Under the pieces are notes generated by a model that saw only the letters and a program-made list of their open reading frames with translations, ran no database searches and had not been told where the DNA came from. Below, in pieces: positions 34,839 to 64,000 of a stretch of DNA of 64,000 bases. Position numbers and translations under genes: made by a program. Positions within the stretch are counted from its first letter, which is position 1; each line of letters starts with the position of its first letter. The stretch is taken from contig JAOSJL010000001.1 of assembly GCA_027494115.1 (NCBI GenBank), positions 248,001-312,000 of the forward strand, read 5' to 3'. The stretch comes from Acidimicrobiia bacterium (GTDB lineage: Bacteria; Actinomycetota; Acidimicrobiia; IMCC26256; JAOSJL01).

Positions 34839-34860
34839 CTGGATCCCCGCCCGGCCTCGA

Positions 34861-34883
34861 GCGCCGCAGGATACCTGCGGCGC
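34861..34883. repeat. REP-like palindrome, locus 1 (23-bp stem-loop)
   Basis: GCGCCGCAGG-ATA-CCTGCGGCGC perfect 10-bp arms; followed by TGATCCTCGACTC flank; lies between ilvC stop and adenylate cyclase start. Confidence 0.93.
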
Positions 34884-34894
34884 TGATCCTCGAC

Positions 34895-35920
34895 TCAGCC
34901 GGAGACTTCGTCGGGACGGGCCTTGCCGGCGCCGATCCAGGGCATCATCGAACGCAGGCGCTCCCCGACCTCCTCGATCGGGTGCTCCGCCGACCGTCGC
35001 TGGAGAGCGTTGTACGTAGGTCGGCCTGCCCGGTTCTCGTTGATCCACTCGCTCGCGAAACGTCCTGTCTGGATCTCGTCGAGGATCCGCCGCATCTCGG
35101 CGCGTGTGTCCTCCGTGATGATGCGGGGACCGCGGGTCATGTCGCCGTACTCGGCCGTGTCGGAGATCGAGTACCGCATGTTGGTGATCCCGCCTTCGTA
35201 GATCAGATCCACGATGAGCTTCACCTCGTGCAGGGTCTCGAAGTAGGCAGACTCGGGTTGGTAGCCGGCGTCGACGAGCGTGTCGAAGCCCGCCTTGATC
35301 AGCTCCACGACCCCGCCGCACAGAACCGTCTGTTCGCCGAACAGATCGGTCTCGGTCTCCTCTTCGAAGGTGGTGTCGAGAACGCCGGCGCGGGTGGCCC
35401 CGATCGCCCGTGCATACGCCAACGCCGTTTCCTTGGCCTTTCCGGATTCGTCGGCGTGGACCGCCACGAGCGCCGGCACACCTCCGCCGTCCTCGAAGGT
35501 CCGGCGCACGAGATGGCCCGGTCCCTTCGGGGCGATCATCCACACGTCGACGCCACGGGGCGGCTTGATCTGGTCGAAATGAATGTTGAAACCGTGGGCG
35601 AACACGAGAGCGTCACGCTCGTCGAGGTTCGGGGCGATGTCGCTCTCGTAGACCGCGGCCTGCTCGGTGTCGGGCAGGAGCACCATGATCACGTCAGCCT
35701 CGCGGCACGCTTCGGCGATCGTCAGAACCCGGAGGCCGGCGGCCTCGGCCTTGGCCCGGGAACTCGACCCCTCGCGCAGGCCCACTCGAACGTCAACGCC
35801 CGACTCCTTGAGATTCAGGGCGTGCGCGTGGCCCTGGGACCCGTATCCGAGCACGGCGACCTTGCGGTTCTCGATGAGCGCCGGGTCCGCGTCGGCGTCG
35901 TAGTAGATCGTTGCGGGCAT
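34895..35920 (-). CDS. ilvC: Ketol-acid reductoisomerase
   Basis: [116 protein letters not shown]. Confidence 0.97.
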
Positions 35921-43984: not shown

Positions 43985-44004
43985 TTCCCGTTTCCTCGTC
44001 TCGG

Positions 44005-44027
44005 GCGGCGCAGGATACCCGCGCCGC
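44005..44027. repeat. REP-like palindrome, locus 2
   Basis: GCGGCGCAGG-ATA-CCCGCGCCGC with TTTCCTCGTCTCGGGC upstream and TAACCCTCGCCTCGGGC downstream; between convergent LLM and gatB 3' ends. Confidence 0.9.
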
Positions 44028-45493
44028 TAACCCTCGCCTCGGGCTTCGAGCCGTTCGTCCAGCAACCTGTTCAGCAGTTGGGGGTTGCCCTGACCCTTGG
44101 TCGCCTTCATCGCCTGGCCCATGAAGAAACCCCGGAGCTTCTTGCGGGTCTTGTCGTCACCCTCCCGGTAACGGGAGACCTCGTCGGGATTCTCCGTGAT
44201 CAATGCGTCGAGAACGGTCACCAGTTCACCCTCGTCGCTCACCTGGGCGAGGGAACGGTCCGCCACGATCCGCTCGGGTCGCTTTCCGTCGGTGAGCGCC
44301 TCGGCGAGCACGTCCTGGGCCAGATTGCGCGAGAGCGTGCCGTCGGCGACGAGCCCGACGAGTTCCGCCAGCCCGTCGGGGGCGAGGGGCAGCACCTCGG
44401 CGGAGAGGCCCGTCTCGTTCAGGTGCGCGAGCACATCGCCCGTCGACCAGTTGACGACATCGCGAGCTGAACCGCCTTCGAGTGCGGCGACCGCACGCTC
44501 CGCGTAGTCGGCCAACGCCGGGTTGCCCACCAGGACCTGCGCGTCGTGATCGGTGATGCCCCAGTCCTCCACGAGCCGTCGGTGTCGTGCCGCCGGGAGC
44601 TCGGGCATGGCCTCGCGAACCGCGTCGCGCATCCCCGCGTCGGGTGACACCGGAACCAGGTCGGGTTCCGGGAAGTAGCGATAGTCGAACGCTTCCTCCT
44701 TGGAACGCATGCCGTGCGTTCGGCCGTCGTCCTCGTCCCAGTGGCGCGTTTCCTGGACGATGCGTTCCCCCCGTTCCCACGCGTCGGATTGGCGCTGGAT
44801 CTCGAAGTCGATCGCCCGCGTGAGCGAGCGAAGCGAGTTCATGTTCTTGACCTCGACCTTGGTGCCGAGCTCCGACGATCCCTCGGGACGCACCGAGACG
44901 TTGGCATCGATGCGCATCGACCCTTCCTCCATCTTCACGTCGGAGACACCGATCGCCGTGAGCACCGCGCGGAGTTGCTCGGCGTACCCACGTGCCTGTT
45001 CCGCACTGCGGATGTCGGGGCGGCTGACGATCTCGAGTAGCGGTACGCCGGCCCGGTTGTAGTCGATGAGCGAATGGCGGGCGTCGTGGATCCGCCCTCC
45101 TCCCCCGACGTGGGTCGTCTTGCCGGTGTCTTCCTCGATGTGGGCGCGCTCCACCCCGATGCGGGCTCCGTCGACGTCCAGGTAGCCGTCGACACAGATC
45201 GGGTCCTCGTACTGACTGATCTGGAAGTCCTTGGGCATGTCGGGATAGAAGTAGTTCTTCCTCGCAAAGATCGACTCTTCGGGCACGGTGAAGTGCATCG
45301 CTTCACCCACCCGCAGCGCGTACTCGACGACCTTCTCGTTGAGGACTGGCAGTGATCCGGGGAGGCCGAGGCACACCGGGCACACGTTGGTGTTGGCCTC
45401 GGCGCCGAACTCGTTGGGGCAGCCGCAGAAGAGCTTGGTGGCCGTCGCCAGCTCGGCATGGACCTCGAGGCCGATGACGGGTTCGACGCTCAC
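44027..45493 (-). CDS. gatB: Aspartyl/glutamyl-tRNA(Asn/Gln) amidotransferase subunit B
   Basis: [78 protein letters not shown]. Confidence 0.97.
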
Positions 45494-56812: not shown

Positions 56813-59602
56813 TCAGACGCTCGAACTCCGTCGGGCTCGCACTGTGCCGAGGAGTACCACGCCACCCGCGAGTAGCGCGATGCCGAGGGGCAGAAGCCAG
56901 CCTCCGAGTGCTCCGGTGAAGGGCAGTTCGCCGCCGGTCGGATTGGAGCCTTCCGTAACCGTCGTGCCTTCCACCTCCGGCGGAGCGGTGGTGGGCGGTT
57001 CGGTACCGGGAGGCCCGGTCGTCGAAGGCCCGGTCGTCGGGGGCTCCGTCGTCGAGGGTGGCTCATCATCGGCAGCGGCCGTGAAGCGGCATTCCGCGTC
57101 GTCGCCCGCGCCCAGTTCCAGTGTCGCCGTGCCTGCCGTCACGTCGACAACGGGGTCGGGCCCATCACCGGTCACCGCGCAGACCAGATCACTCATCGTC
57201 CAGCCGTCGGGCGCCGTGGTGGCGATCGTGTGCACTCCCGGCGCCAACTCGTCCAGCGTCACGGTTCCGCCGTGGTCGAGCGTGAACGGGTCGGTGTCGT
57301 CGAGGGAGAACTCGAAGCCCGTCCCGCCGGCGGGCTCGGTGATCTGGAGCACCGTCAGCGACGCAGTGGTCGGCGGCTCGGCGCGGAAGCGGTCGCGAAG
57401 CCAGATGTCGAACTCGGTCATCGGTGGACCGGTCAGGAACGAGAGGTGAGTCGAGATGATGCTGAACAGACCCGGATCGATCTGGAACGCCCCCTGGCCG
57501 TCGGCCGGACGATCGGGTTGCGGCAGTGGATCCGGCAGCCACGGGATCGCGTACTGCTGGAGTCCGTGGAGCGGGAGATCCGCCAAGGCGATCAGACGCT
57601 CACTGGCGAAGTTCGGAACAGTCTCGTCCCCGTGCGCGTAGACGAGTTCGACGGGTTGCGCGTGGTCGGCGAGTCGGTGCGCCACGTTCGTACCATCACC
57701 ACCGTCGACCAGCTGCTGGGCGATCGCCAGCAACGCCGCCGAGTCTCCGGGAGACGCGTTTTCGGCCACGATCCCGCCGAACGCCTGACCCTCCTTGGTC
57801 CAGTAGTTCGACTCGTTGAGGACGTGCGTGACGCCGAGACCCGCCACCTGGAGGAATGCTGCATCGATGCGCGGGCTCATCGCCACGAACGGGACGCCGA
57901 GGACGCCACCGAGCGACGTGCCTTCGTAGATGATGCGCTCCGTGTCGATGTCGGGCGTGCCGTCGCCGTTCTCACCGAAGAGAGAGAAAGGAGCGACGTC
58001 GAGATCGGCAAGCTCTGTCTCCACCGCCTTGAGCAGCGACGCGTGGTCCACGACCGACTGCGCGGGGATCGAGACTGCCCGCCCGGTGTCGTCGGGCGAC
58101 AGCAGATCGAAGATCTGCTGCTTGTTGGGGTCTCCCGGCACCACTCGTTCGCCGTGGTTCGGTTGGTCGATGCTGATCGTGGCGACCCCCGTGGGCCGTT
58201 GGCGATCACGGCGGCGAGGAAGGTCTCCTTGTAGAAGCCGAGGCCGTGGCCGTAGATCGCGATCGGAACGGAGCGACCGGCGGGAACCCTCGGGAGGGCG
58301 AGCAGGAACGGCACGACCTGGGACTTCCCCTGGTCGCCGGCCTGGTAGTGGAGCTCACCGTTGCTGTCACGGAAGTCGGTGAGGTCGACAGTGCCGCGCA
58401 CGATCGAGTCGACACCGGGAAGCAGGAAGTTCCAGTCGACCGACTGGATCGCGACGGCGTGGGGCTGCGCGTCGACGGTGGCGACCATCGCCTCCACGTC
58501 GCCGACGGCGTCAGCCTCCGAACGGATGGTGAAGTCGGTCAGGGACAGAACATCGTCACGGGAGAACTCAGCATCGACGGGAGCCAACAGCGCGTCGTAG
58601 TGGTCTCCGAGCGGTGTACCCGTACCACCGAGCGCCTCGTCGACACCGGGAGTGCGCGCGAACGGAGTACCGGCCGAACCGAGCGAGTCGGTGATCACCG
58701 CCACGTAGGTGTGCCCGAACTCGAAGCGGACGCGCGGCCACGCACGAATGATCGTGTTCGGAGCACCGCGGAGGGCGGCGTCGGGATCGAGGTCGACAAT
58801 GACCGGGACCCGCGCGTCGGTCGATGTGTCGTACACAGCGAAGGCGTCGCCGCCATCGGCGGGAACCGTGGCAGGGTCGATCGGCTGGTCGAGCTCGAAG
58901 AGAACCGGACTCAGGGCCGGGTATCCGTCGGATCCGTTCAGCACACTCGACGGCGCGAGCGAGGCCGGGTACTCCGCGACCGTGGCGGAGTCGAGGATGC
59001 TGTCGGGCACCTCGAGCAGGCCGGCGGCCGTGCGGAACAGGTCGCTCGGCCACGGCACGGCGCACGAACCACCTCCGGATGCGGAGGTGTCACCGAACCC
59101 GAGGGGATTGCACGTCAGCGCGTCGAGTGACGACACCACCAGGGGCGCCGCAGGTGCCTCGGTGGGCTCGAGCGCGTCGGGCCCCGCCGTGTCGGGTGCG
59201 TTCGGCACATCCGGACCAGGTGCGGCGTTCGCTGCGCTGGCGATCTCCGCCAGACGGGCAGTGGCTGCCGCGCTCAACGCGTCGATGAGGCTCTGGAGCC
59301 ACGCCGGTGTCCGGTCACCGGGAGCGGAAGGTGATCCGGGCGTGCTCTGCCCGCCGTCGCCGGACTCCAGCCGTTCCGTCCGTGGGCCCGGTGTCGGCGG
59401 GAGGGACGCCGGGCGATCCTGCAACGGGCGGTGCTGCGCCGGAGGTGCCTGATCCGGCGCCCCCGTGTCCTCCACCCGCAGGTCCTCCACCTCCCTGGCC
59501 CGGTGGGACGCATGCAACGGCCGCGAAAGCCACGACCGCGAGACCCACCATGATCCGCCGCACGCGTGCTCCCGTTCGCCCCGGCCTGCGCTGTCCACCC
59601 AT
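56813..59602 (-). CDS. Secreted alpha/beta-hydrolase-like cell-surface protein with LPXTG-type anchor; frameshifts near 58190 and 59420
   Basis: N-term MGGQRRPGRTGARVRRIMVGLAVVAFAAVAC (ORF 59315..59602); IAIYGHGLGFYKETFLAAV; IYEGTSLGGVLGVPFVAMSP; C-term GELPFTGALGGWLLPLGIALLAGGVVLLGTVRARRSSSV. Confidence 0.78.
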
Positions 59603-59619
59603 GAAGGGAGCGCGGCCTA

Positions 59620-61773
<2,154 letters not shown>

Positions 61774-62432: not shown

Positions 62433-63305
62433 GTGATCTGGCCGTTGCGCGTGCTGTGGGCGGCAATGCCCGTTACAGCGGGAGCCGTGATCGCCGATGC
62501 GGTCTCCGACTGGTCGCCGGGAACACGTGTGGTCGCCATCGCTCTGGCCTGGATCGGATGGGGTGCCGTCATCCTCGGACTGTTCATCGTCCGTCCCCCC
62601 TCGCTGACAGCCACGCGGATCGGCGCTCCGGTCGCCGTGGCGGTCACCGTCGTCGTCGCCCTCACAGACGATTCATCCGCCGCACTCATCGGCGTGACAC
62701 TCGTGCAGGCACTGGCCACCACAGCGCTGGCGTGGTCGGTGCCGTTTTCTCTGCTGTGCGCCCAGTCCGTCGCATACGGCGACGAGCGGCGTTTTCCGCT
62801 TCGAACACCGCCTGGCCTGTTCGTGGGCCCGATCCCCATAGCGGTCGCCCTCGTGGGAGTCGGCGTCGCGGCGGGTCCTCTGATGCTCGGCGACCGACGG
62901 TGGCTGCTCGGGTCGTGCGTCACCGTCGTCGGCGTCGCTCTCGCCGCGGCCGCGACGAGATCGCTGCACGTCCTCGCGACGCGTTGGATCGTTCTCGTGC
63001 CCGCCGGGGTCGTCGTCGTCGACCCGATGACGCTGGCCGAACCGGTTCTCCTCACTCACGGCTCTCTGGCGTCTCTCACTCCTGCACCGCCTCGCGCCGA
63101 TCCCGGTGTCGACATCGTCGACCTCCGTCTCGGTGCCGTCGCGCGGTCTCTTCGAATCGACCTGAGTTCTCCCGCAGCACTCGCCCGCCGTCCACGGCGA
63201 CATCGACCACTCACGACCACCGACGTGACCGCGCTGCTCGTGGCACCCGTCCGACCCGACGCGCTGTGCGACACCTACACCCAACGCCGACCGGGACGGG
63301 TGTAG
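62433..63305 (+). CDS. Hypothetical polytopic membrane protein
   Basis: MIWPLRVLWAAMPVTAGAVIADAV... several hydrophobic segments then soluble C-terminal part. Confidence 0.7.
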   Translation: MIWPLRVLWAAMPVTAGAVIADAVSDWSPGTRVVAIALAWIGWGAVILGLFIVRPPSLTATRIGAPVAVAVTVVVALTDDSSAALIGVTLVQALATTALAWSVPFSLLCAQSVAYGDERRFPLRTPPGLFVGPIPIAVALVGVGVAAGPLMLGDRRWLLGSCVTVVGVALAAAATRSLHVLATRWIVLVPAGVVVVDPMTLAEPVLLTHGSLASLTPAPPRADPGVDIVDLRLGAVARSLRIDLSSPAALARRPRRHRPLTTTDVTALLVAPVRPDALCDTYTQRRPGRV

Positions 63306-63317
63306 CCACCTGTTCAC

Positions 63318-63334
63318 GCGGCGAGAGCGCCGCC
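63318..63334. repeat. 17-bp direct repeat gcggcgagagcgccgcc, copy 1 (flanks REP array)
   Basis: Identical to 63526-63542, which encodes the mnmA C-terminus. Confidence 0.9.
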
Positions 63335-63480
63335 GGCCCGAGACGAGGAATAGTGGCACCCGAGGCGAGGAATAGCGCCGCAGGTAACCTGCGGCGCCCG
63401 AGACGAGGAATAGCGCCGCAGGTATCCTGCGGCGCCCGAGACCCGAAACGAGGATCAGCAGCGCAGGTATCCTGCGCTGC
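63335..63480. repeat. REP-like palindrome array, locus 3: vestigial unit plus three stems
   Basis: Stems at 63375-63397, 63413-63435, 63458-63480 separated by cccgagacgaggaatag-type linkers; a linker pair with deleted stem at about 63337-63374. Confidence 0.93.
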
Positions 63481-63521
63481 CCGAGTTGAGGCGACGGGAA
63501 GAGGCAAGAGGACGAAGCTTC

Positions 63522-64000
63522 TCAGGCGGCGAGAGCGCCGCCGAGAAGCCTCGTACCCTCGTAGAACGCCACGACCTGGCCCGGGGCGACGCGGGGCTGG
63601 GGCACGACGAAGCGGACACGTTCGGCCTCCACGACCCCACGAACCACGTCGCCGTGCGCACGCGTCTGCACGTCGACCTCGGTGCCCGGCGGCACAGGAC
63701 CGTCGACGAAGCACGGGTCGCGCAGATCCGCGTGGTCGCGCAAGAGCTGGTCCCGTTCTCCGATCGTGACCGTGGACGTGGTCGCGTCGACGTCGACGAC
63801 GTAACGCCGTTCCCCGAGCGCCACGCCGAGCCCGCGCCGTTGACCGATCGTGAAGGCGGCCACGCCTTCGTGCCTCGTGACCCGCCTTCCGTCCGCGTCG
63901 ACCACCCATCCGGGTCGCGGTGCGGTCCTCTCGTCGAGGAAGTCGACCCGCTGCCCCGCACGGATGAAGCAGACGTCCATGCTCTCGGCCTTCGTCGCGG
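63522..64000 (-). CDS. mnmA: tRNA-specific 2-thiouridylase, C-terminal part (continues past window)
   Basis: MDVCFIRAG...ERTAPRPGWVVDADGRRVTRHEGVAAFTIGQRRGLGVALGERRYVVDVD... Confidence 0.93.
   Translation of the reverse strand, partial: ATKAESMDVCFIRAGQRVDFLDERTAPRPGWVVDADGRRVTRHEGVAAFTIGQRRGLGVALGERRYVVDVDATTSTVTIGERDQLLRDHADLRDPCFVDGPVPPGTEVDVQTRAHGDVVRGVVEAERVRFVVPQPRVAPGQVVAFYEGTRLLGGALAA

Follow-up and report, generated by a model that had tools for sequence, protein, structure and literature searches.

The window, that is, the whole 64,000-nucleotide stretch of DNA analyzed here, carries near its right end a tandem array of stem-loops. The array lies between a plus-strand gene without an NCBIfam match (62433..63305), whose 3' end faces it in the sense orientation, and the 3' part of mnmA (63522..63998, minus strand), which is convergent with it. 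An earlier note on this DNA had described three 23-nt stem-loops in tandem with common linkers, plus a vestigial unit, in the gap between these two genes, and both the parts and their location were confirmed in the sequence. The array runs on the plus strand and begins with the vestigial half unit (63336..63353), which consists of the left linker GCCCGAGACGAGGAATAG and lacks a hairpin. It continues with unit 1 (63358..63410; hairpin 63375-63397, GCGCCGCAGG-TAA-CCTGCGGCGC), unit 2 (63396..63440; hairpin 63413-63435, GCGCCGCAGG-TAT-CCTGCGGCGC) and unit 3 (63441..63499; hairpin 63458-63480, GCAGCGCAGG-TAT-CCTGCGCTGC). The stem of unit 3 contains two compensated pairs, in which arm positions 3 and 4 change from G,C to A,G and their partners to T and C, as the note had also observed. 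Scoring with R1, a covariance model built from an alignment of 30 copies, gave 67.5 bits for unit 1, 74.3 bits for unit 2 (match G000:C1:311396-311454 in contig coordinates) and 75.0 bits for unit 3. The folding z-scores of units 1 and 3 were -3.7 and -3.8.

Two single units were also found in the window, both on the minus strand and in different settings. The first (34842..34900; R1 64.8 bits) closes the gap between ilvC and the co-directional gene that follows, which starts 4 nt past the end of the unit; the ilvC stop codon TGA falls within the unit's first 6 nt. The second (43986..44044; R1 76.3 bits) lies at the 3' end of gatB, whose stop codon TAG it holds.

A direct repeat of 22 nt (TCAnGCGGCGAGAGCGCCGCCG; copies 95% identical) brackets the array at 63314-63335 and 63522-63543. 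Its right copy coincides with the 3' terminus of mnmA, stop codon included, and its 18-nt core had no other occurrence among the loci analyzed. This repeat may be a duplication from the time the array arose.

Size and distribution of the family

Within the window, the linker pattern matched 9 times with up to 3 mismatches compared with 2.4 expected, and the core palindrome matched 8 times compared with 0.95 expected; neither count was reached in any of 100 shuffles. Genome-wide, the linker gave 19+16 matches versus 3+2 for a reversed control pattern. The covariance-model search proposed in the earlier note revealed 48 copies at E<1e-4 (E-values being rough) at 36 sites in the 3.17 Mb metagenome-assembled genome (MAG) that contains the window (85.6% complete). 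Seven clusters were identified in this genome, each with its copies on the same strand and head-to-tail.

Further R1 copies were detected in 12 of 60 relatives from the order and class. With a second covariance model, R2, the copy numbers were 72 for G030 and 47 for G042, two relatives belonging to one genus. With strict filters, under which weak matches are lost, R2 matched 24 of 396 genomes of the class, and among 398 genomes sampled across the phylum it matched only the window's own genome. Exact matches in named records came from Actinomycetota MAGs. Viral carriage received no support, as two exact patterns gave no match in IMG/VR contigs. Rfam yielded no match at the gathering score, and permissive thresholds gave only chance matches of the miRNA type and similar. 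Overall, the family has a patchy distribution in one order and is almost missing from the remainder of the phylum.

RNA fold and covariation

A longer form of ~89 nt, seen in the relatives and in some copies of the window's own genome, comprises a left arm, hairpin 1, CCCGAGCCGGGGCCCGAGCGGCC, hairpin 2 and GAGAGCGGGAA. The linkers on the two sides pair with each other (G-C, N-N, C-G, tandem G.A/A.G, GG-CC); the linker is a paired arm, not a spacer, and the whole unit covaries as a single fold. Full Watson-Crick pairing takes the place of the tandem GA in copies with GGCTACC/GGTAGCC or GGTGAGC/GCTCACC, and this exchange supports the helix directly. Since both linkers are arms that pair within one fold, the repeat unit is larger than the earlier note stated: its hairpins stand as described, and its extent has to be revised to ~59 nt in the window and 89 nt in the full form.

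Conservation of structure over sequence, also claimed in the note, was strongly supported by covariation. In alignment A6 (109 distinct copies), 92% of cells were paired, 22 of 26 pairs showed double changes, and covariation was 0.247 compared with 0.086±0.004 in shuffles. For the copies of the window's own genome, linker pairs included, the value was 0.192 versus 0.090. A5 and A6 are model-fitted alignments and lean toward structure; the MAFFT alignments A1 and A3, which are free of this bias, agreed, with covariation above every shuffle and every slid register; the signal was even stronger in the larger model-fitted sets. G.T cells outnumbered A.C cells by about 2:1 (60:30 and 23:9), indicating that the folding strand is the sense strand. 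The near-invariant parts were the core GGGGCCCGAGCGGCC and the 3' segment GAGCGGGAA; for the former, which forms the middle segment, two alternative pairings were indistinguishable by covariation. For one sequence a third, outer stem between the two ends was predicted, but it was unsupported across copies. Two loci (L098 and L099, from G029 and G034) carry ~40 extra nt in the loop of the first hairpin, with the stem foot and all linkers conserved.

Placement at stop and start codons

Genes around the copies were called with a home-made codon-usage finder written for this analysis. In G030 and G042, 61 of 87 clean sites lay between two same-sense genes, and at a further 16 the copy immediately preceded a sense gene whose neighbor was divergent; antisense placements were few. 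The called downstream gene was in the sense orientation at 77 of 85 sites (P=3e-15). Here the most frequent end point of the upstream stop was position +6 of the element (the TGA of nnnTGAGGCGAG); the start of the downstream gene mostly lay 0-16 nt beyond the 3' end, most commonly at 2-4 nt. In the window's own genome, the upstream gene was sense at 27 of 36 sites (P=0.004), often with its stop codon in the first six nucleotides of the element (TGACCCGAG, ACCTGAGACG), and downstream orientation was random (sense at 17 of 36). In their placement, copies in this genome follow stop codons and 3' ends rather than downstream starts. The two single units in the window illustrate both kinds of placement. 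The earlier description of a structured multi-copy element near gene 3' ends is strongly supported.

Strong hairpins at the 3' ends of genes in the window's own genome would also be expected of ordinary transcription terminators whose common sequence is coincidental. We regard this explanation as very unlikely: the stems are followed by a purine tail (AAAGGGAA) and not by a T-run, no terminator-like site was called at the array, the linker and loop sequences are conserved, and copies in the relatives sit between co-directional genes. A two-stem RNA fold just 5' of start codons likewise recalls a metabolite riboswitch or another leader RNA of a regulon. However, the downstream genes are unrelated housekeeping genes (priA, sufD, rpsE, ilvD, ndk, rplF, sucC, trmD, dnaJ, pheT, purQ and others), and a riboswitch regulon was rejected on their identities. 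The lack of an Rfam match, the very high copy number and the tandem arrays also argue against such a leader, and we give it a negligible chance.

Filled and empty junctions in related species

Comparison of G030 with G042 revealed different insertions among the same genes: at about 12 orthologous junctions only one of the two species carries the element, and at five both do. In the ribosomal-protein operon, the element was found before rpsE and rpmD in G030 only, and before rpsC, rplF and rplO in G042 only; similar differences were observed at purQ, ctaG and other genes. The names rpsE, rplF, ctaG and purQ were assigned by NCBIfam (ctaG with a match below the curated cut-off), and the genes that we take to be rpmD, rpsC, rplO and smc were named from their translated starts. 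At the rplO junction, the empty site reads ...GGCATGACC and the filled site ...GGTATGA[element]ATGACC; at the purQ junction, the empty site reads ...ACATGAGCGC and the filled site ...ACATGA[element]GTGAGCGC. The element is accordingly flanked by ATGA...ATGA at rplO and by ATGA...GTGA at purQ, compared with a single ATGA in the empty site. Duplicated RTGA flanks were present at some sites, and the duplication was clean at few junctions. From the dispersal of the element and its flanks, we infer that the filled and empty states reflect insertions rather than precise losses.

Where RTGA-like motifs flanked an element, they were most often 86 nt apart; 12 of 17 such spacings equaled 2 modulo 3, so that an open frame connects one motif to the other. 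Among G030 and G042 copies, 30 of the 76 frames with a 5' start codon ended at the downstream start, versus 24 of the 227 other frames (P=9e-8), an excess that is not independent proof of selection because the modal length explains part of it. A small open reading frame (ORF) joining stop to start was found in 30 of 101 copies (~30%).

Sense orientation, a covarying RNA fold and exact stop-start placement could also mark a domesticated cis-acting mRNA element, such as an intercistronic stabilizer, a processing site or a translation-reinitiation module, that is under selection and was mobile only in the past. The near-invariant core and 3' segment fit such an element, as do sites common to both species, for example smc, where the sequence has diverged and the fold is kept. 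However, the orthologous junctions that are empty in the congener, including those of ribosomal-protein genes, indicate that the element is dispensable at most sites, and the downstream genes have no common function. We consider domestication rather improbable, though the least so of the alternatives weighed here.

Search for a mobilizing enzyme

The earlier note had assigned the array to the REP/BIME type and suggested looking for a RAYT-type (Y1 HUH) transposase. The copies are indeed palindromic, extragenic, multi-copy and clustered, and often lie beside stop codons or supply them, as REPs also do (PMC3733652). REP palindromes carry a GTAG or CGTC tetranucleotide at one end (PMC3733652), and their doublets are inverted repeats (PMC3116915). 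In contrast, the present stems have no such tag at their foot and are preceded by a variable ANNAG (TCAG, GAAG, TGAG, ATAG) or CCG, and the clusters are head-to-tail. Y1_Tnp (PF01797) was absent from the window's own genome and from every carrier among 61 genomes, including G030, G011 and G042 (96-100% complete), while control genomes gave matches. The assignment to REP/BIME in the strict sense therefore had to be abandoned, and REP, BIME or REPIN elements moved by a RAYT are an unlikely source of the array. The own genome (85.6% complete) also gave no match to DEDD_Tnp_IS110 or RVT_1. RAYT/IS200-605, IS110 and reverse transcriptase were rejected as mobilizer, since none was present in all carriers and none in the own genome.

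Comparison with MIRU and proposed mechanism

The family shares with REP, BIME and REPIN elements its short palindromic extragenic repeats, their high number, their clustering and their capacity to supply stop codons; it differs from them in lacking the GTAG/CGTC tag and a RAYT, in its head-to-tail arrangement and in its sense orientation relative to genes. Its placement, orientation, coupled ORFs and RTGA duplications resemble the mycobacterial interspersed repetitive units (MIRU) more closely than REP. MIRU elements (Supply et al. 1997, as described in PMC12548453 and PMC2734929) are 40-100 bp long, occupy ~41 loci, are mobile, insert at start codons and carry a coupled internal ORF. The copies studied here are comparable, with 59-89 nt, 36 sites in the own genome and 47-72 copies in the relatives, and tandem arrays at some loci. 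They are intercistronic and apparently mobile, with filled/empty variation between species. Start-codon insertion in the sense orientation between co-directional genes applies to G030 and G042, whereas copies in the own genome follow stops (upstream gene sense at 27/36, downstream gene at 17/36), and small internal ORFs with coupling to the gene that follows, although enriched in G030 and G042, occur in only a minority of copies. The original MIRU paper reportedly gives DTGA as the target, which the RTGA-like duplication recalls. The present family differs in folding into a covarying two-stem RNA that contains a tandem G.A motif, and in belonging to another actinobacterial lineage. By analogy with the published descriptions, and with no homology claimed, the family would work like MIRU. 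Most work on MIRU has concerned its use in typing, and we know of no explanation of the mechanism of its mobility.

Taken together, these data make it probable that the family is a MIRU-like short mobile element with a strongly conserved two-stem RNA fold, stop/start insertion and sense orientation. On this explanation as a whole, the array in the window would probably consist of an interspersed mobile element of short length (59-89 nt), repeated three to four times in tandem. The element would insert in fixed orientation at TGA-containing stop/start junctions, with the sense strand folding as RNA. Its 5' end abuts or supplies the stop codon of the preceding gene and, in the related species, its 3' end falls just before the next start. 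An open frame that crosses the element often links both, and insertion would thereby leave translation of the operon intact. Movement would be by true transposition. The sense orientation may result from target choice together with selection to keep translation, and the fold may be needed for recognition by a mobilizing enzyme, for tolerated reinitiation, or for both. The coupling part is inapplicable to the window array, because the array sits between convergent genes and the copies of its own genome are not tied to starts.

We also put forward, tentatively, a stronger reading, in which the family would represent a type of mobile element not described before, conserved in the RNA fold of the element itself. 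Such an element would be moved by a mobilizing enzyme and would spread through essential operons, including ribosomal-protein genes, by stop/start insertion, serving there as a relay for translation from a stop through a structured spacer or mini-ORF to a new start. The MIRU-like element favored above would represent an independent family of higher copy number than MIRU in another actinobacterial group, with filled and empty sites, a defined fold and insertions in ribosomal-protein operons, and the target rule, the coupled-translation effect and the search for a mobilizing enzyme become directly testable.

Two genes elsewhere in the window showed irregular reading frames. The NCBIfam match of ligA (59617-61719, minus strand) stops at residue 625 of a 700-aa frame (profile ~621 of 664) and its C-terminal 75 residues appear out of frame, which suggests either an assembly error or that the BRCT domain carries a frameshift. 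On the same strand, the overlapping long frames 56813-58144 and 57877-59598 (56813-59598 overall) look like one gene for a secreted protein broken by a frameshift.
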